A stretch of 64,000 nucleotides of DNA. It comes from Bacteroidales bacterium. Lineage in GTDB: Bacteria; Bacteroidota; Bacteroidia; Bacteroidales; P3. Both the position numbers and the translations under genes were made by a program. Every line of letters begins with the position of its first letter. The stretch's first letter is position 1. The DNA lies in the NCBI GenBank assembly GCA_017962665.1, contig JAGCUU010000032.1, positions 1 to 64,000 on the forward strand. The letters run 5' to 3'. Shown here in pieces: positions 11,698 through 61,797 of this stretch. The notes below the pieces were generated by a model, which did not search any database, was not told the origin of the DNA, and saw nothing but the letters and a program-made list of their open reading frames with translations.

Positions 11698-12461
11698 AGT
11701 TCATTGGGTTTGTGGTTGCCCGCGAAGAGTTGTTTGATCCACTCGCGGTTGAGTCGGGCTATATTCTGGCGTTTAATCTGTTTGGGGCATTCTGCCTCGC
11801 AGGCGTAGGTGTTGGTGCAGCTGCCGAAACCGAGCTCGTCCATACGGCATACCATTTTCTTTACGCGCTCGTTTGCTTCGACCTGTCCTTGAGGCAGCAT
11901 GGCGAGGTGAGCCACTTTGGCACCCACAAAGAGCATGGCGCTGGCGTTTTTGCAAGCTGCCACACAGGCTCCGCATCCGATGCATTCGGCGGCGTCCATG
12001 GCCATGTCGGCAAAACGTTTTGGTATGGCTATGGTGTTGGCGTCGGGCACACCGCCAGTGGTGACGCTGATGTAGCCGCCGGCTTGTATGATTTTGTCGA
12101 AGGCACTGCGGTCTACAACAAGGTCACGTATAACAGGGAAAGCCTTTGCACGCCACGGCTCAATCCATATTTCGTCGCCATCGTTGAATTTGCGCATGTG
12201 CAGCTGGCATGTGGTCACCCCGTCATCGTTGCCGTGGGGGCGTCCGTTGATATAGAGGCCGCACATTCCGCAGATACCCTCTCGACAGTCGTTGTCGAAA
12301 CAGACGGGATGGGCAATGTGGTCGTTGATAAGCTTCTCATTGAGAATGTCGAGCATTTCGAGGAAAGAACAATCGGACGAGATGTCGCTGACCTTGTAAG
12401 TCTCAAAATGTCCTTTGGCTTTGGCGTTCTCCTGACGCCATATATGTAGGGTGAAGTTCAT
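11694..12461 (-). CDS. frdB: Fumarate reductase / succinate dehydrogenase iron-sulfur subunit
   Basis: Electron relay between the flavoprotein and the cytochrome b subunit, on the cytoplasmic face of the membrane. The 255-residue protein carries a [2Fe-2S] site (C59, C64, C67, C85), a ferredoxin-type cluster at [11 protein letters not shown] (160-170) and a third cluster at C215, C221 and C225. Lengths and spacing are those of the Wolinella/Bacteroides group. It follows frdA after 71 bases; that gap holds a 7-bp tandem repeat reaching to two bases before the ATG. In an anaerobe the reaction is probably fumarate to succinate. Confidence 0.95.
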
Positions 12462-12463
12462 TT

Positions 12464-12491
12464 AAATTGAAAATTGAAAGTTGAAAATTGA
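12464..12491. repeat. Four tandem heptamers (AAATTGA) before the frdB start
   Basis: Four head-to-tail copies of AAATTGA on the plus strand (the third copy is AAGTTGA) fill the frdB leader. On the coding strand they end two bases before the ATG, where a ribosome binding region would lie. No Shine-Dalgarno sequence is visible. Confidence 0.85.
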
Positions 12492-12532
12492 AATCACTTG
12501 CGTTTGTGCCACAAATTGCTGGTCATAGATTA

Positions 12533-14488
12533 CTAATTTTTATAGTTTCTCGTGGCAATCTTGATGTGTTCGTAGCTGAGTTCCTCTTTGTGGAGAGTTT
12601 CGGGCTGGTTGTGGCCTTGGTACTCCCAAGCGGCTACATACATGAAGTTATTGTCGTCGCGCAGAGTCTCGCCATCGTCGGTCTGACTCTCGGTGCGGAA
12701 ATGCCCTCCGCACGACTCGCGGCGATGCAGTGCGTCAGCGGTGATGAGACGTGCCAGTTCGAAATAGTCAGTCAGTCGAAGGGCTTTCTCCATTTCAGGA
12801 TTGAAGCTCTCTATTTCGCCAGGCATCTGCACATGCTGCCAGAACTCATTCTCAAGTTCGTCAATCATCGTTGCTGCCTTGGTGAGGCTTTCTTCGTTGC
12901 GGCTCATACCAACGTATTCCCACATGATGTGTCCGAGGCGTTTGTGGAAGTAGTCGACAGTCTTATCTCCCTTGATGTCCATCAGCTGTTGTTCGCGTTG
13001 GCGGACAGCCTGCTCAGCTTCGTCAAACTCGGGTGTGTCGGTAGGTATGTGACCTATGGTTATCTGGTCGGCGAGGTAGTTTTGCAGAGTGTAAGGTAGA
13101 ACGAAATAGCCGTCGGCCAGGCCCTGCATCAGAGCCGACGCACCGAGACGGTTGGCACCATGGTCTGAGAAGTTGGCTTCTCCAGCAGCGAAGAGGCCAG
13201 GGATGGTGGTCTGCAGTTCGTAGTCGACCCAAAGGCCGCCCATGGTGTAGTGGACGGCGGGGTAGATCATCATCGGTGTCTCGTAGGGGTTCTTGTCTGT
13301 GATTTTCTGGTACATTTGGAAGAGGTTGCCGTATTTCTGCTCGACGACTTTGCGTCCTAAACGCTTGATGGCATCGGCAAAGTCGAGGAATACAGCCAGA
13401 CCAGTGGATCCCACGCCGTATCCTGCGTCGCAACGTTCCTTTGCGGCACGGCTGGCGACATCGCGTGGGACGAGATTGCCGAAGGCTGGGTAGCGGCGCT
13501 CGAGGTAATAGTCACGTTCCTCTTCGGGTATGTCATTGGCATTCTTCTGTCCGGCGCGGATGGCTTCGGCATCCTCTTTCTTCTTGGGTACCCAGATTCG
13601 TCCGTCGTTTCGCAAGCTCTCACTCATTAAGGTGAGCTTTGACTGGTAGTCGCCGTGGACGGGTATGCAGGTGGGATGAATCTGTACATAGCATGGGTTA
13701 GCAAAGAGAGCACCTTTGCGGTGGCATATCCATGCGGCACTGCCGTTGCTGTTCATAGCGTTGGTGGAGAGGAAGTAGACATTGCCGTAGCCTCCTGTGG
13801 CCAACACCACAGCGTGTGCAGAGTAGCGTTCCAGTTTGCCGGTGACAAGGTTGCGGACAATGATGCCGCGGGCTCGTTCCCTGCCGTCGGTGTCTTTCAT
13901 AAGCACCAGTTCTTCCATCTCGCAGCGTGTGTGCAACTTGACACTGCCGCGTTCAATCTCACGGCTCAAAGCTCCGTAGGCGCCGAGCAGCAGCTGCTGC
14001 CCCGTCTGACCGCGGGCGTAAAAGGTGCGGCTCACCTGTGCACCGCCAAAAGATCTGTTATCGAGCAGACCGCTATAGTCGCGTGCGAAAGGGACACCCT
14101 GCGCAACGCATTGGTCAATTATGTCACCGCTTACTTCGGCCAAGCGATAGACGTTGGCTTCGCGGGCACGGTAGTCGCCACCCTTGATGGTGTCGCGGAA
14201 GAGACGTTCCACGCTGTCGCCGTCGTTCTGATAGTTTTTTGCAGCGTTGATGCCTCCTTGTGCGGCGATGCTGTGTGCGCGACGCGGCGAATCCTGTATG
14301 CAGAATATGTCGACATTGAAGCCCAATGCACCGAGTGATGCGGCTGCAGAGGCTCCAGCCAATCCAGTACCGACAACGATGATGTTAAGCTTGCGTTTGT
14401 TGGTAGGGTTGACAAGTTTCTGCGTGGTTTTATAATTGGTCCATTTTTCAGCAAGAGGACCTTCAGGTATTTTGGAATCTAATTTCAT
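12533..14488 (-). CDS. frdA: Fumarate reductase / succinate dehydrogenase flavoprotein subunit
   Basis: Catalytic subunit that interconverts fumarate and succinate with covalent FAD. The 651-residue protein shows the dinucleotide fold [13 protein letters not shown] (38-50) and the flavin-linking histidine H72 in [11 protein letters not shown]. Substrate-site blocks [18 protein letters not shown] and [15 protein letters not shown] follow, then the NRLGASAL motif. Length and N-terminal extension fit the Wolinella/Bacteroides class rather than E. coli FrdA. It lies between frdC and frdB, giving the C-A-B order. Its leader carries a 9-bp tandem repeat. Confidence 0.96.
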
Positions 14489-15449: not shown

Positions 15450-16712
15450 TCATCCTCCAAAGTCGTCGAACATGATGTTTTCGCGCTGTACACCTAAGTT
15501 GTCGAGCATAGCGATGACAGCTTTGGACATTGGGCCTGGACCGCACATGTAGTATTCGATGTCTTCGGGTGCTGGATGGTTGCATAGGTATGTTTTGTAC
15601 ATTACATCGTGTACGAAACCTGCCGTGTAATGCATCCCTGCAGCATCGGCTGCTGGGTCGGGGCGGTCAAGTGCCAAATGGAAATGAAAATTGGAATAAT
15701 CTTTTTCCAATTTTTGAAAGTCGTCGAGATAGAAGACTTCGTTGAGGGCGCGGGCACCGTAGAAGAAATGCATGGTGCCGGTGTAGTGCAGGGTGCGTGT
15801 CAAATGCATAATCTGTGCCCTAAGTGGCGCCATTCCTGCTCCACCGCCTATCCAAATCATCTCGCCTTTATCAGGATTTTCTTTTATATGGAAATCCCCA
15901 TAAGGACCACTCATTATGACTTTATCTCCTGGTTTAAGTGAGAAAATGTATGATGAAGCTATGCCTGGATTGACATCCATGAATCCTGAACGGTCTGGTT
16001 TGAAAGGGGGAGTGGCTATACGTACAGTTAGCATGAATACATTTCCTTCGTCTGGGTAGTTGGCCATAGAGTAAGCACGTACAGTTGGTTCTTTATTGAT
16101 ACATTTAAGATAGAATAACCTATTTTTCTCCCATGTAGGCAGATATTCATTGCCAATTAATTCACGGTCGAAGTCGTTGTAGTTTAACATGAATTCAGGT
16201 ATTTTTATCTGAGCGTAGCTGCCGGGCTTGAAGTCCATGTGTTCACCGTCAGGCAATTTTACCTTGAATTCTTTGATGAATGTGGCGACATTACGGTTTG
16301 AAATAACAGTACACTCATATTCCTTAATGCTTAATATGCTTTCAGGAACGTTTATACTCAAGTCCTCTTTGACTTTGAGCTGGCAGCCGAGTCGCCATCC
16401 TTGTTGTATCTCTTTGCGTGAGAAAAAGCCTGTCTCGGTGGGCAGTATGCTTCCACCGCCTTTCAGCACTTGGCAGCGGCACTGTCCGCAAGAGCCTTTA
16501 CCGCCACAGGCCGACGGCAGATGGATGTGCTGCTCGGAAAGAGTGGAGATGAGGCTGTTGCCGGTGGGGACAATGAGTTGTTTGTCATCGTTAACGGTGA
16601 TGGTGACGTTGCCTTGCGGAATTAGTTTGGCGCGTAGCACCAGCAGCAAGATGACGAGCAGCAGTATTACGGTCAAAAAGACCACCATAGCGGATATGAT
16701 AGTCTGTGTCAT
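15450..16712 (-). CDS. nqrF: Na+-translocating NADH:quinone reductase subunit F
   Basis: NADH-oxidising entry subunit of the sodium pump. The 420-residue protein has one N-terminal helix (about 5-28), a [2Fe-2S] ferredoxin domain with C69, C75, C78 and C110, and an FAD/NADH domain with [12 protein letters not shown] and [15 protein letters not shown]. It ends in the conserved MFDDFGG. All features of a working NqrF are present. Its start overlaps the nqrE stop by four bases. This subunit rules out an Rnf complex, which uses RnfC and RnfB instead. Confidence 0.96.
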
Positions 16713-17323
16713 AGTTTTATTCCCATAAAAGACATAAAGGCGATGCCCATAAGTCCAGTGATAATGAATGTTATGCCTACGCCTTTAAGAGCCGGAGGTA
16801 TTGCCGAGTAGCGCAGCCGTTCGCGTATGGCGGCGATGCCGACAATGGCAAGAAGCCAGCCAATACCGCTTCCAAGTGCGAAGCAGGTGACTTCGCCAAT
16901 GTTTGAGTATCCGCGTTGTTGCATGAAAAGAGAGCCTCCAAGTACAGCACAGTTGACAGCTATGAGCGGCAGGAAGATGCCAAGGGAGTTGTATAGGGAC
17001 GGGGAGTAGCGTTCGATGACCATTTCTACGATCTGTACTATGGCGGCGATGACGGCGATGAAGAGTATGAGGCTGAGGAAGCTGAGGTCAACGCCAGCCA
17101 GTGACGGACTGAGCCACGACAATGCACCAGGGGATAGCAGATATTTGTCGATAAGGTAGTTGACCGGCACAGTGATGAGCAGCACAAAGGTCACCGCCAC
17201 ACCAAGTCCAAATGATGTCTTTACGGTCTTCGATACGGCAAGATACGAGCACATTCCAAGAAAGAATGCGAATATCATATTGTCAATGAAGACCGATTTG
17301 ATAAATATGTTAAAGTATTCCAT
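16709..17323 (-). CDS. nqrE: Na+-translocating NADH:quinone reductase subunit E
   Basis: Integral membrane subunit of 204 residues with about six helices, part of the sodium channel and of the iron site formed with NqrD. It begins [32 protein letters not shown], where the conserved cysteine sits in a half-helix, and a second cysteine lies in [10 protein letters not shown]. Both are the NqrE landmarks. It lies 2 bases after nqrD and overlaps nqrF by four bases. Confidence 0.95.
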
Positions 17324-17325
17324 AA

Positions 17326-17943
17326 CTATTTCTCTTGTAGTTCTTTATCGTGGCTGCGTTGTATCCATATGATGATACCTACCAGTATCAGCGCCATTGG
17401 AGCCATAATGATGAATCCGTTGTTTTCATAGCCGATGTTGTAGAGGCCGAGCTTCTCGATGATAGGGTAGCCCCACAATGTACCTCGTCCAAAGAGTTCG
17501 CGCACAAAGCCAAGAATGACCAGGATAATACCATAGCCGAGGCCATTCCCGATGCCGTCGAGCAGCGAGTCCAAAGGCTTATTGGTCATTGCAAAGGCTT
17601 CAAGTCTTCCCATGACTATGCAGTTTGTAATGATAAGCCCCACGTAGACCGACAGCTGCTTGCTGACATCGTAGACAAAGGCCATAAGCACTTGGTTGAC
17701 AAGAATGACCAATGTCGAGACAATAACAAGCTGTACGATGATGCGGATTCGTGGCGGTATGGTGTTGCGGAGCAGCGAGATGATAAGGTTTGCCAGCGCT
17801 ACCACGACAGTCACCGAAATGGCCATCACCACAGCCGGTTTCAGCTGCGCTGTGACAGCCAAGCAGGAGCATATGCCTAGCACTTGTACGGTGATGGGAT
17901 TCTCCTTGTTGAAAGGCAGTTTTATTAGGTCAAATTTCTTCAT
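17326..17943 (-). CDS. nqrD: Na+-translocating NADH:quinone reductase subunit D
   Basis: Membrane subunit of 205 residues, paralogous to Nqr[20 protein letters not shown] and [14 protein letters not shown] carry the conserved cysteines that bind the intramembrane iron centre with NqrE. About six helices are visible. Four-base overlap with nqrC and a two-base gap to nqrE indicate one polycistronic message. Confidence 0.95.
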
Positions 17944-18566
17944 TGTTCCTCCTCCATTAGTAGTTTAGAAATGGCTTCGCAGTCTTCCACTTTAGGAATT
18001 TCATCGCAGTATAGTTCAAATGCTTTTGCGAGCATTTCTGTCACGCCGTTGCTCGTCATAGTGCCGCCGCTGATAGCATCAACTTCGTAAGGATTGTCCT
18101 TGTCAGCATTCTTTTTCAAGACAATTGGACGCTCGGTCATTTCCTTGCCAATGAAACGCATGGCAAACTTGTCGGTGGCTATTTCGGCTCCGAGACCAGG
18201 GGTCTCACCTTGGTGGTCGAAGACGGCACCCACTACAGAACCACCGTCATCGATTGCCATATATCCCCATATCGGACCCCAAAGACCGTTTCCATTCAGG
18301 GGGATAATGATGCCGAGTTTGAATTTGTATAATGGAAGTCCGTTAGCAGTTGTCGTTTCCTTGATATTCTCTGCATAGAGATTTTCAGCATTGTTACGTG
18401 TAGCTTCGATACCTATGGTTTTCAGTATCATCTGTTTTGTCTCGACCTCGCGGTTCTTGTCCTGGCGTGGCTTGAGACTTGTTGCAACGAGTGTCAACAC
18501 CAATGCCACCACAGCCGCAAGCCCAAGCGCATAAAACAGCATGTACTTGTTGGAAAAATGTTTCAT
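17940..18566 (-). CDS. nqrC: Na+-translocating NADH:quinone reductase subunit C
   Basis: Periplasm-facing subunit that carries a covalent FMN. The 208-residue protein has one N-terminal helix (about 8-30) and an FMN domain. The flavin attachment site reads DAISGGTMTS (163-172), so T169 is the likely phosphodiester-linked residue. The usual motif is S-G-A-T, and here the Ala is Gly, a mild change. Overlaps of four bases on both sides place it firmly in the nqr operon. Confidence 0.94.
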   Translation of the reverse strand: MKHFSNKYMLFYALGLAAVVALVLTLVATSLKPRQDKNREVETKQMILKTIGIEATRNNAENLYAENIKETTTANGLPLYKFKLGIIIPLNGNGLWGPIWGYMAIDDGGSVVGAVFDHQGETPGLGAEIATDKFAMRFIGKEMTERPIVLKKNADKDNPYEVDAISGGTMTSNGVTEMLAKAFELYCDEIPKVEDCEAISKLLMEEEQ

Positions 18567-19744
18567 CGGATATTCCTCCTTTCTGCTATTGCCCAGCGTT
18601 TTTTACGTTTTCTAATGTTCATTGCCACAACACAGTGGTCAATTAGCGGAGCGAAACAGTTCATCAGCAGGATGGCAAGCATCATACCCTCCGGGTAGGC
18701 TGGGTTCACGACACGAAGCATTACAGCAAAGACGCCTATCAGGAATCCATATATCCATTTTCCTGTATTGGTATGAGCAGCTGTTACGGGATCGGTAGCC
18801 ATGAAAACGCATCCAAAAGCGAATCCTCCCATCAGGTAGTGGTAGTAGAAAGGAATATGCATATAATCATTGGCTCCTATAGTGTTGAACAGCAATCCCA
18901 TCAATCCGCCACCAATCACTACGCTAAGCATTATGCGCCAACTGGCAATACCGGTTAGTAAAAGAATTACTGCCCCAAGTAATATGGCGACAACAGATGT
19001 CTCACATGTGCAGCCTGGTATAGTGCCTATAAACATATCGAGTGCTGATACCTGTAGAGGCTGACCGGACATCAGTTGGCCTAACGGTGTGGCGCATGTA
19101 ATGGCATCAGTCCCCCATAAGTCGGCGGCAATCCATACGTTTTCGCCAGACATTCGACTTGGATAGCTGAAAAACAAAAAAGCACGTGCGAGCAGTGCGG
19201 GATTGAGGATGTTGTATCCGCTTCCGCCAAAGACCTCTTTGCCTATTATTACTGCAAAAGCGACAGCCAGTGCCAGTTGCCATAAAGGTATTGTCACAGG
19301 TACAATCATTGAGATGATAAGACCTGTCCCTATGAAACCTTCGCTTACCTCTTCGTGGCGTATCTCGGCGAAGAGGAATTCTATGGTTAGTCCGACTATG
19401 TAGCTGACGGCAATGATTGGAAGCAGACGTAAGAAACCAAACCAGATCTGATGCCAAAAAATCCAATCCAAGCCATTGCTGATGGATGTTTGATGGCCTA
19501 TATTCCACATGCCAAACAACAAAGCCGGCATCAGTGCAATAACAACTGTTATTATTGTACGCTTCAGGTCTACTGCATCGCGGATGTGGCAACCTCTGTA
19601 TCTGGCGAATTTCTCTCCGCCAGTGATGGTGTTTGGCGTATAGGCGAATGATTCGAATGCTTCGAATGTGGACGATAATTTTTCAAAACGGCCGCCTTTG
19701 CTGAAGTTTGGCTTCAATTTGTCAAAAAAGTTTCTAAGTGTCAT
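18563..19744 (-). CDS. nqrB: Na+-translocating NADH:quinone reductase subunit B
   Basis: Largest membrane subunit, 393 residues with about ten helices. It holds covalent FMN and riboflavin and forms much of the sodium path and quinone site. The FMN motif is DAITCATPLG, with T219 as the attachment residue. GGSGYNILNPALLARAFLFFSYP and MATDPVTAAHTNTGKWIYG are conserved NqrB/RnfD blocks. Its ATG overlaps the stop of the nqrA 3' fragment by four bases, which shows that the fragment's frame is the native one. Confidence 0.95.
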   Translation of the reverse strand: MTLRNFFDKLKPNFSKGGRFEKLSSTFEAFESFAYTPNTITGGEKFARYRGCHIRDAVDLKRTIITVVIALMPALLFGMWNIGHQTSISNGLDWIFWHQIWFGFLRLLPIIAVSYIVGLTIEFLFAEIRHEEVSEGFIGTGLIISMIVPVTIPLWQLALAVAFAVIIGKEVFGGSGYNILNPALLARAFLFFSYPSRMSGENVWIAADLWGTDAITCATPLGQLMSGQPLQVSALDMFIGTIPGCTCETSVVAILLGAVILLLTGIASWRIMLSVVIGGGLMGLLFNTIGANDYMHIPFYYHYLMGGFAFGCVFMATDPVTAAHTNTGKWIYGFLIGVFAVMLRVVNPAYPEGMMLAILLMNCFAPLIDHCVVAMNIRKRKKRWAIAERRNIR

Positions 19745-20007
19745 AGGCCGACCTCCTTTCTTGCTTTTTCAAGACCTTCGCGTATTATGGCTTGTATTTC
19801 AGTCTTGGAAGTGTCAGCAAACTCGCATAGCGCCAAGTCTTCGGGCTCGACTTCATAGATACCGAGGTTTTCCATCTGTTCGATGTCTCCCACAATACAG
19901 GCTTTTATTAGCTGCATTGGATAGATGTCAAGAGGCACAAGCTTCTCGAACTCACCAGTGACGAACAGTGGTCGCTGGCTGCCGTGCCTACCAGTATCGA
20001 AATCCAA
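19741..20007 (-). pseudogene. nqrA: nqrA 3' part, out of frame with the 5' part
   Basis: Encodes the last ~88 residues of NqrA (FDTGRHGSQRPLFVTGEFEKL, then MDIYP-like LDIYPMQLIKA, ending LEKARKEVGL). The only start available is a TTG at 20005-20007, which is inside the normal gene and not a credible initiation site. The fragment joins the 5' part at 20006-20021, where ATTTTGA is repeated in tandem. Removing one 7-bp copy, or one A, restores a continuous reading frame of ordinary NqrA length. Its stop overlaps the nqrB start by four bases. Confidence 0.85.
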
Positions 20008-21157
20008 TTTTGAATTTTGAAAGCAAACCGCTTAAGAATGTGCGAGAGAAACTGAATTTACGGAAGTTGGGCCGTAGCCAGCCCATAAAGTCATAGTAGT
20101 CGCCTTCGGGTATGAAACAGACTTTGTCGCACGATGCAGACAAGAAACTGTCGGATGCAATGTTGTCTTTTGACCGCCTTATAGAAACTCCACTGAGTAT
20201 ATCACCACATACGATTCTTTGTTTGCCACTGCCGCTCTTAAGGATGATCGTAGGTATGTCTGACCCCGATATTATACCGTAATAGGTTGGCTTGAGAACG
20301 TCAGGGCCGCAGAAGGCGACAACCCGATCGGGTTTGTAAATGCCTGTGCGGAACAGGTGCCCGATAATAGCAACATCCTGTACACCAATGGTCCATACTG
20401 TCTCGCCCTTGTTTATGGGGTCGATATAAGCTATCTGTGTGCCTACCAGACCGGCAGGGTGAGGGCCTTCAAAGAAATGGATAGTGGCGTTCTTGGTTTC
20501 CGCAAAGAAAGAGTCGCGCTGGCTCTTCCCGTCGAGCGACAGATGCACAGGCGCTATTTTGGACAATACGTCAATGCCCTGTTGGAAATTCTCTTTACTT
20601 TGTGCCAAAGACCAATGAGCCTGAAGGATGTAGTCATAGTCTACCGGCAGCGGCGAACTGTCGAATGCCGAGATAAATATTGACTTGGGTTGGCTGCTCT
20701 GGCGCGGTATAATACCGAAAGGCCGTTGACGCAGCGTGTTCCACAACCCCGAAAGAAGCAGTATTTCTCTTATTCTGTCGGCATCGTCGCGGTCCGCGTT
20801 TGTGATTTTAAAATGACGGTTTCTTTGCATCCCCTCGTCGGCTTCAATAATGACAGAAAGCAACTTGCGTTTTTCGCCTCGTACGATGGCTTTTACGGTT
20901 CCGCTGACGGGCGACACAAAAGGTATCCCCGGATTGTTCTTGTCTACAAACAGCGGTGAGCCGGCAATGACACCATCTCCTTCGGACACTAACAGTCGCG
21001 GAGCGACGCCAACATAGTCAGTGGGCTTGACAGCATAGTCATACTGAACCCCGTCATACGAGGGAAACAACAATTCTAAGTTTCTTTGTGCAGTCCCTGG
21101 GATGGGAATGTCAAGGCCTTTCTTGATTTTTATGACTTCCAAATCTTTCAATTTCAA
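19988..21157 (-). CDS. nqrA: Na+-translocating NADH:quinone reductase subunit A, frameshifted 5' part
   Basis: Cytoplasmic quinone-binding subunit. This 389-codon frame has the NqrA start VIKIKKGLDIPIPGTA, then NPGIPFVSPVSGTVKAI and EGPHPAGLVGTQIAYIDPINKGE, all family hallmarks. It loses the native frame after SRTFLSGLLSKFK and ends in a foreign GFRYW. NqrA is normally about 450 residues, so about 80 are missing and are found in the next frame. No ATG exists near the N-terminus. The TTG at 21155-21157 or the TTG five codons later must serve, and the first overlaps the aspA stop. It may be a real mutation, a slippage variant or an assembly error. Confidence 0.88.
   Translation of the reverse strand: MKLKDLEVIKIKKGLDIPIPGTAQRNLELLFPSYDGVQYDYAVKPTDYVGVAPRLLVSEGDGVIAGSPLFVDKNNPGIPFVSPVSGTVKAIVRGEKRKLLSVIIEADEGMQRNRHFKITNADRDDADRIREILLLSGLWNTLRQRPFGIIPRQSSQPKSIFISAFDSSPLPVDYDYILQAHWSLAQSKENFQQGIDVLSKIAPVHLSLDGKSQRDSFFAETKNATIHFFEGPHPAGLVGTQIAYIDPINKGETVWTIGVQDVAIIGHLFRTGIYKPDRVVAFCGPDVLKPTYYGIISGSDIPTIILKSGSGKQRIVCGDILSGVSIRRSKDNIASDSFLSASCDKVCFIPEGDYYDFMGWLRPNFRKFSFSRTFLSGLLSKFKIGFRYW
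20006..20021. repeat. Tandem 7-bp repeat at the nqrA frameshift
   Basis: ATTTTGA occurs twice head to tail (20007-20013, 20014-20020) with one more matching base on each side. Seven is not a multiple of three, so gain or loss of one copy switches the frame of nqrA. Confidence 0.85.
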
Positions 21158-22581
21158 TTATCAATTTTCATTTTTCCCAAATCCACAGGTTTGATCATAT
21201 TCTCCGGTTGCAACACCTTGTCTAACTGCTCTTTTGTAAGCAGACCGTGCTCTAATACAAGTTCATACACCCCTCGATCTGTTTCGTTGGCTTCCTTTGC
21301 AATCTTGGTGCTCTGCTTGTATCCTATGATAGGGTTGAGCATTGTAACAATGCCTATCGAGTGCTCCACCAGCTCGCGGCAGCGTTTTTCGTTGGCACGA
21401 ATGCCGTTGATGCAAAGAGTGCGTAGCGTGTCCAAACCATTCTCTAACAGATGTATGCTCTCAAATAGAGTATAAGCTATCACAGGTTCCATCACGTTCA
21501 GTTCCAACTGGCCATTGTCGCTGGCAAAGGTGATGGTCATATCGTTGCCTATCACTTTGTAACATACTTGGTTCATCACTTCGGGGATGACAGGATTGAC
21601 TTTCCCTGGCATAATAGAGCTGCCTGGTTGGCATTCGGGGAGATGTATTTCATTAAATCCACAACGAGGCCCAGAGTTTAATAAACGAAGGTCGTTACAA
21701 ATCTTATTCAGTTTTAGTGCCAGTCGTTTCAAGGCACTGGAATATTGTATCATGCAGCTTGTGGCACTGGTTGCTTCAATCAAATTGTCGGCAAGGCGTA
21801 TACGCCAACCTGTAACCTGACATAGTGCTCTGATGCAGGCGTCACTATAGCCGGGTTTAGAACAGATACCTGTTCCTATTGCCGTAGCTCCCATGTTAAC
21901 AGTCAAGAATTCGCGCGCGGCAAGATTCAGATTATTTACCTCTCCGCGAAGCGATGCGGCAAATCCTCCAAAAGTTTGACCTAGAGTCATTGGTACGGCA
22001 TCCTGTAGCTGGGTACGACCCATTTTGATTATATGAGCGAACTCTTTGGATTTTTTTTCCAATGAGTCAATGATATTATTTAGATGGGGAAGAAATGCGT
22101 TGTGTTCAAGAAACATTGCAATATGAATTGCACAAGGATAGGCATCATTAGTGCTCTGAGAGGCATTGACTACATCGTTTGGCGAGCAGTGTTCGTAGTC
22201 TCCTTTTGGAAAACCCATTTCTTCCAAAGCAATATTGGCAATAACTTCGTTGGCGGCCATGTTTGTGCTGGTACCAGCGCCTCCTTGTATCATGTCAATC
22301 GGAAATTGGTCATGAAATTCTCCATTGATGAGGCGGTCGCAGGCCTTGATTATTGCATCGCCTTGCTCTTTGGAAATCATTCCAACCTCAATATTAGCCA
22401 TTGCGGCAGCTTTTTTTGTAATGGCTATTCCTTTGATGAATGTTGGGTATTCACTCACTTTTTGTCCGCTGATTCTGAAATTCTCCATTGCTCGGGCAGT
22501 CTGCACTCCATAGTAGGCGTCGACCGGTACCATGTGTGTCCCCAGAAGGTCAGTCTCGGTTCTGTATTTAGTGTTTTCCAT
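21154..22581 (-). CDS. aspA: Aspartate ammonia-lyase (aspartase)
   Basis: Converts L-aspartate to fumarate and ammonia in the cytoplasm. The protein, 475 residues from the ATG at 22579-22581, has GTSTNMAANEVIAN, NASQSTNDAYP and the superfamily signature GSSIMPGKVNPVIPEVMNQ with the flexible catalytic loop. STNDAYP and the PECQPGSSIMP context favour aspartase over class II fumarase, though the families are close. A TTG 23 codons upstream is rejected because it lies above the promoter-like site at 22620-22627. The stop overlaps the nqrA start, so fumarate supply is tied to NQR and FRD. Confidence 0.88.
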   Translation of the reverse strand: MENTKYRTETDLLGTHMVPVDAYYGVQTARAMENFRISGQKVSEYPTFIKGIAITKKAAAMANIEVGMISKEQGDAIIKACDRLINGEFHDQFPIDMIQGGAGTSTNMAANEVIANIALEEMGFPKGDYEHCSPNDVVNASQSTNDAYPCAIHIAMFLEHNAFLPHLNNIIDSLEKKSKEFAHIIKMGRTQLQDAVPMTLGQTFGGFAASLRGEVNNLNLAAREFLTVNMGATAIGTGICSKPGYSDACIRALCQVTGWRIRLADNLIEATSATSCMIQYSSALKRLALKLNKICNDLRLLNSGPRCGFNEIHLPECQPGSSIMPGKVNPVIPEVMNQVCYKVIGNDMTITFASDNGQLELNVMEPVIAYTLFESIHLLENGLDTLRTLCINGIRANEKRCRELVEHSIGIVTMLNPIIGYKQSTKIAKEANETDRGVYELVLEHGLLTKEQLDKVLQPENMIKPVDLGKMKIDN

Positions 22582-61760: not shown

Positions 61761-61788
61761 CTTTATCCTTTAACCTTTAACCTTTACT
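61761..61788 (+). repeat. Four tandem heptamers (CTTTAAC) before the lepB start
   Basis: CTTTATC, CTTTAAC, CTTTAAC, CTTTACT lie head to tail and end nine bases before the lepB ATG at 61798. Confidence 0.8.
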
Positions 61789-61797
61789 ATAAACAAG

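Follow-up and report, generated by a model that had tools for sequence, protein, structure and literature searches.

An nqrA reading frame broken at a heptanucleotide repeat in a Bacteroidales genome, and heptad arrays in related genomes

What interrupts nqrA, the gene for NqrA of the sodium-pumping NADH:quinone reductase, in the Bacteroidales bacterium of assembly GCA_017962665.1? The stretch analyzed here, referred to as the window, comprises the first 64,000 nucleotides (nt) of contig JAGCUU010000032.1, and its nqrA lies on the minus strand in two overlapping frames. The first frame opens at 21157 and runs for 389 codons to a TAG stop at 19990-19988. The second has 88 codons (20007..19741), with TTG as its first usable start, and shares an ATGA overlap with nqrB (18563-19744). 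At 20007-20020 stands ATTTTGAATTTTGA, which is ATTTTGA twice in tandem on the plus strand (TCAAAAT TCAAAAT on the coding strand). A TAA at 20034-20032 precedes the downstream frame, which is open from 20031; the frame switch is thus confined to 20031-19991, and the repeat lies inside this zone. The split of nqrA at the heptamer repeat is a confirmed observation; both frames, the tandem ATTTTGA and the overlap with nqrB were located as a sequence-only reading of this DNA had described them. Programmed ribosomal frameshifting was considered and rejected: inspection by eye found no in-frame X XXY YYZ heptamer there, and the relatives read straight through.

The two-unit repeat by itself is within chance and not remarkable, as three exact 7-nt tandem pairs of at least 14 nt were seen in the window against 4.15 expected from 20 shuffles. 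The chance of an exact pair landing inside the ~40-nt switch zone is ~0.003, by arithmetic from the shuffle expectation.

Analysis of the domains showed what the break removes. The first frame matched the Pfam families NQRA_N (102 bits) and NQRA_2nd (152.9 bits), both over their cut-offs, and NQRA_SLBB at 23.8 bits, below the cut-off of 27. The second piece had no Pfam match alone and was covered by tblastn of two intact relatives at 92-93% identity. The whole NqrA of these relatives was recovered from the window in two pieces in different frames (residues 5-474 and 2-473, each of 474), and the last domain was out of frame, the other frame taking over at residue 383 (query from L185) or at residue 384 (query from L187). 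The two pieces met without a missing residue, and the 14 nt at 20006-20019 were common to both. Since no residue is lost and these 14 nt are read in both frames, the best fit is that two of four units were lost, rather than one gained; the remaining 14 nt would then stand for units one and two in one frame and for units three and four in the other.

A break at this place might also leave a split but working NqrA, with the N-terminal domains made from the first frame and the 88-codon frame translated separately from its TTG by coupling. The break falls at a domain boundary: PDB chain 4u9o, with 360 residues, matched only residues 5-374 of an intact relative, and an N-terminal portion of NqrA that lacks the last domain has thus been solved as a structure. 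Conservation extends to the second frame, which carries a TTG close to its start. Against these points, several residues at the end of the first frame are out of frame and the genus showed no fixed split, and we regard a working split protein as extremely improbable.

Both halves of the gene look conserved. The ratio of nonsynonymous to synonymous substitution (dN/dS) against the sister species was 0.085 for the 5' half and 0.018 for the 3' half, rough values given that dS was high and near saturation (1.0 and 2.1). This agrees with the sequence-only reading that the 3' part looks unmutated, and it suggests that the break is either recent or an error.

The site of the break is a linker before the last domain, defined here as the sequence between an (R/H)T..SG motif and a DT..HG motif. 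Among 29 species the linker was 33-99 nt long. An alignment of 31 NqrA proteins had no invariant or nearly invariant column at residues 375-388 (L095 numbering), and 30 of its 93 invariant columns fell from residue 390 on. The linker therefore appears to be flexible, to judge from its variable length and the conservation in the alignment. A separate observation concerns L008, whose nqrA is 88% identical to L009 and 70% identical to L011 upstream of the linker, and 75% and 86% identical to them, respectively, downstream; this gene appears to be a mosaic with a break at or near the linker, produced by recombination or chimeric assembly.

The NqrA tree placed the window beside L006, its sister species, with support of 100/99. 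The L006 linker is 42 nt long, with heptads TCAAAAA TCAAAAT CCAGTGT TCAAAAA, and that of L007 is likewise 42 nt, with heptads TCAAAAT TCAGAAT TCATAAT TCAAAAT. The window linker, with TCAAAAT TCAAAAT, is 28 nt, exactly 14 nt or two whole units shorter than either. Unit number as the likely cause of the frame change, as proposed in the sequence-only reading, is borne out by this difference. Its further proposal, that an extra copy had been gained and that the one-copy form would be the ordinary NqrA, fits the relatives poorly: a one-copy ancestor was not among the 29 linkers read, and the sister species and L007 have four units in linkers 14 nt longer, so two units were probably lost. A homopolymer base-call error as the sole difference, for which that reading had allowed, is not favored either, the difference being exactly 14 nt.

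We therefore favor, with moderate confidence, the explanation that the linker array lost two of its four units (14 nt), so that the frame is lost before the last domain and the pump is probably inactive. The four-unit heptad array would code for a loop that tolerates changes in length, and loss or gain of units, by slippage or by deletion between short repeats, would be held in check by the reading frame. Two units would have gone from the window copy, most simply via slipped-strand mispairing or deletion between neighboring units. The product would be NqrA without its last ~88 residues, leaving the sodium-pumping NADH:quinone reductase probably inactive, and Rnf might carry part of the load. 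What is inferred here is slippage as the mechanism, a pump without function, the recency of the event and, from the sister species and L007, which way the unit number changed.

The frame at the linker was compared across the genus. An NqrA match was found in 107 of 120 genomes, the window's own included, the linker frame being open in 104 of the other 106; the remaining two (G029 and G092) were cut by contig ends before the linker. The open state was read directly in 33 genomes (29 species plus G013, G039, G091 and G094) and deduced for 71 from open frames of 432 codons or more. Among the genomes judged, the window's is the sole one off at the linker, and on and off states were not both seen among relatives. 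Another possibly broken nqrA in the genus is that of G054 (L192), with a single TGA that falls in the N-terminal half and not at the linker.

An intact true gene, with the two-unit form arising as an assembly or consensus artifact of a mixed-strain metagenome, would also account for a single broken copy. The draft genome is incomplete, consists of 41 contigs and contains other heptad arrays; apart from the break its nqrA is unmutated, and every relative that could be judged has the linker frame open. The missing piece, though, is exactly two units. A 28-nt array is also much shorter than the usual sequencing read, and collapse is not expected for it. Nor is damage seen elsewhere: a search of the window with open reading frames (ORFs) from two relatives gave four queries that matched in more than one piece, two of them nqrA (one per relative) and the other two, by reading, an alternative-frame reading and an antisense ORF. 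By reading of the matches, nqrA is the only real gene broken in the compared stretch (about 11.7-22.6 kb), and an assembly ridden with frameshifts was rejected on this ground. We consider the artifact unlikely, yet of appreciable weight.

Periodicity at the linker bears on how the array changes. Lag-7 periodicity reached the shuffle limit (p = 1/2001) in seven of the 29 species (L007, L011, L017, L018, L019, L022 and L023), and all seven periodic linkers have four units, some of them imperfect. Two unit families occupy this one site, TCAAAAT-like and GGARARC. The L008 linker has two GGARARC units and an open frame. Between L022 and L023, all four units have changed alike, GGAGAAC four times versus GGAAAGC four times, while the nqrA genes are 91% identical over the 900 nt upstream of the array and 89% downstream. 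As the same change in all four units could hardly come from independent point changes, the units appear to have been homogenized with their number kept at four. This is best read as concerted evolution of a coding microsatellite at constant unit number, and the comparison indicates that unit changes at the linker happen over species time.

Such turnover raises again the on/off switch proposed in the sequence-only reading, in which slippage would change the unit number in both directions and so turn the pump on and off within the population. Coding repeats make contingency loci in Haemophilus and Neisseria, and an energy-metabolism subunit is an unusual kind of switched gene. The nqrA repeat is a coding repeat with a unit not divisible by three, both gene halves are conserved, and the array has turned over between the sister species L022 and L023. 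The likeness to contingency loci, and to neuO of E. coli K1, whose phase variation is known to be driven by heptanucleotide repeats (PMC13001214), is that a change in unit number shifts the frame. The difference is that the gene here encodes a respiratory subunit rather than a surface-modifying function, and that the long hypermutable tract of a contingency locus was not found: the window has two units, within chance, and the relatives have four. All seven clean arrays stand at four units, and the frame at the linker is open throughout the relatives in which it could be judged. Reversible phase variation is thus very unlikely, and of the earlier proposal that the event is recent or reversible, recency is consistent with the conserved halves (error aside), while reversibility found no support.

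The heptad repeat is not peculiar to nqrA. Exact 7-nt arrays in a 236-kb sample of the window's genome, compared with a second-order Markov null, numbered 37 versus 15.4 expected at two or more units and 4 versus 0.2 at 2.5 or more. The corresponding figures for 200 kb of G095 were 55 versus 10.2 and 18 versus 0.0. In G095 (L175-L184), periods 6, 8, 9, 11 and 16 were raised above the null too. Imperfect heptad arrays numbered 23 in the own-genome sample, counted by a lax rule without its own null: 16 intergenic, 3 partly genic and 4 inside ORFs, the longest-ORF call being crude and overestimating coding. Three tandem copies of TTCAAAA gave 86 exact matches in 22 of the 120 genus genomes, one of them in the window's own genome. 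The reversed control, three copies of AAAACTT and itself a heptad repeat, gave 31 matches in 9 genomes, 17 of which were in G003 (8) and G013 (9); other species thus favor other heptads. Three copies of GGARARC occurred in 38 of 120 genus genomes, with up to 434 matches (G021; overlapping registers counted), compared with 3 control matches in 2 genomes. This pattern was absent from the window's own genome and from all 70 genomes searched in 11 other genera of the family. Heptad repeats are dispersed through the genome in many copies, and arrays of them abound in a portion of the genus.

Other arrays of the window's genome were recorded alongside. TAACGGT/TAAAGGT-type arrays lie at L169:2113-2152 and 2277-2316 and at L171:11843-11889 and 12034-12073; they end in a common tail, TTAAAGATTAAAGAGAGAAG, and look less like a bare repeat than like a small dispersed element. 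Within the window, further imperfect heptad arrays were found at 12464-12493 and 61761-61790, both intergenic, and at 21154-21176, the junction of nqrA with its upstream gene, which we take from its motif to be fumarase/aspartase-like.

Arrays inside genes were surveyed in 826 kb from six genomes, where 67 arrays of at least 21 nt were found. An open frame of at least 150 codons spanned 26 of them, none in the window's own genome and a few by a frame on the opposite strand; another 5 were merely putative frame-switch candidates and 36 were neither. The stretches from G021, G018 and G012 were picked mostly on contigs with pattern matches, and the shares do not represent rates for whole genomes. 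The protein context was read for 27 arrays, namely all 26 spanned ones and one more. Of the 22 GGARARC-type arrays, 18 translated, in the longest frame, to AESGKRK or RTENGE-like peptides, 2 read in the other orientation (AFRFPLS-like) and 2 were open on both strands, so that either orientation may apply. Pfam matches for ten array-bearing ORFs comprised primase, peptidase C10, TMEM260-like, Ham1, amidohydrolase, NqrA (two arrays), NqrF-type oxidoreductase, SpoU methylase, RadA-like ATPase and ferredoxin-type, the RadA-like and NqrF-type labels being readings of domain sets. In the Ham1 and RadA-like proteins a domain match encloses an array and goes on in frame beyond it; in the SpoU and NqrF-type proteins the array stands between two domain matches. 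The two in-frame nqrA arrays are those of G021 (L208:14232-14264 and 14444-14471), and the nearby oxidoreductase with NqrF-type domains carries its in-frame array at L208:18866-18897.

Several observations weigh against the loss of two units by slippage. The draft is 76.6% complete, so that the two units may reflect a minority allele, or an error of assembly or consensus. L008, L009 and L010, which are also close, have 39-nt linkers of other sequence. The array of the sister species L006 is imperfect (lag-7 p = 0.17), so the ancestral array had decayed and a deletion other than by slippage is possible. Altogether 22 of the 29 linkers, that of L006 among them, lack lag-7 periodicity at the shuffle limit. 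Periods 6, 9, 10 and 14 were also raised in the own-genome sample, so the excess is not of seven alone. With dS near saturation, the divergence values give no date for the break.

The remaining genes of the operon were unbroken (Table 1); nqrB to nqrF were named from operon order and the match to the relatives' operon. The genome comprises 1.88 Mb. A search for a second nqrA in it gave only the one match, and no match to NuoH of complex I was found, both within a genome of the stated completeness; complex I was accordingly rejected as a back-up. Of the Rnf genes, RnfC was the one searched for and is present, and Rnf may supply part of the ion gradient. The named relatives (n = 71) are metagenome assemblies whose stated sources are mostly rumen or gut (goat, buffalo, yak, deer, sheep and horse), which points to a gut or rumen origin for the window's organism.

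Table 1. Features of the nqrA locus and the nqr operon, in window coordinates.
Feature	Position	Strand	Remarks
nqrA 5' part	19988..21157	-	389-codon frame; NQRA_N, NQRA_2nd and sub-cut-off NQRA_SLBB; ends in out-of-frame residues and TAG
Heptanucleotide array, two units, in linker before last NqrA domain	20007..20020	-	four units here in L006 and L007
Zone with both frames open, must hold frame switch	19991..20031	-	
nqrA 3' part	19741..20007	-	88-codon frame; conserved last domain, 93% identical to sister species; ATGA overlap with nqrB
nqrB	18563..19744	-	unbroken, 393 codons
nqrC	17940..18566	-	unbroken, 208 codons
nqrD	17326..17943	-	unbroken, 205 codons
nqrE	16709..17323	-	unbroken, 204 codons
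nqrF	15450..16712	-	unbroken, 420 codons

Among longer simple repeats, those with a unit of seven nucleotides are the most abundant class in most surveyed genomes, and a polymerase-contact hypothesis has been offered for the length of seven (Mrazek 2007, as cited in PMC4679880). Known units include GGGAATC of Xanthomonas and GGGGAYT of Nostoc (PMC4692102) and TAACTGA of Beggiatoaceae, Cyanobacteria and five Bacteroidetes (PMC4679880). The arrays described here are like these long simple sequence repeats in their 7-nt unit, dispersal, several unit sequences per genome, imperfect copies and patchy occurrence among species, and in that 16 of the 23 imperfect arrays of the own-genome sample are intergenic; they differ in unit sequence. 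As to length, the window copy of two units falls within chance, the shuffle limit was reached in the seven species named above and not in the sister, and the own genome shows an excess. The protein shares the NqrA domains of Vibrio cholerae (PDB 8a1u, 7xk3 and 4u9o), an intact relative matching 8a1u over 465 residues. Unlike that NqrA, or the one from Prevotella (PMC6560451), the window's has its last domain out of frame, and several members of the genus have a heptad-built linker before this domain. A literature search with few terms among openly licensed PubMed Central papers returned no recognized account of phase-variable nqrA or of heptad repeats in Bacteroidales of the rumen.

A wider interpretation is tentative, and we hold it to be distinctly unlikely. 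In part of this genus of gut Bacteroidales, heptads would have spread into housekeeping coding sequence (nqrA, NqrF-type, primase, RadA-like, Ham1 and SpoU), in frame and mostly as hydrophilic AESGKRK-type linkers. Concerted turnover at a fixed unit number would sample frame-broken states repeatedly, and the window's nqrA would be one of these, with heritable loss or switching of the sodium pump. The heptanucleotide cases described in the sources cited above lie mainly between genes, and here arrays also stand in frame inside core genes of related species. With a 7-nt unit, two of every three possible changes in unit number break the frame. If the interpretation is true, the birth of an array, its homogenization, selection on its frame and its failure, as in the window's nqrA, could be compared between species at one linker.
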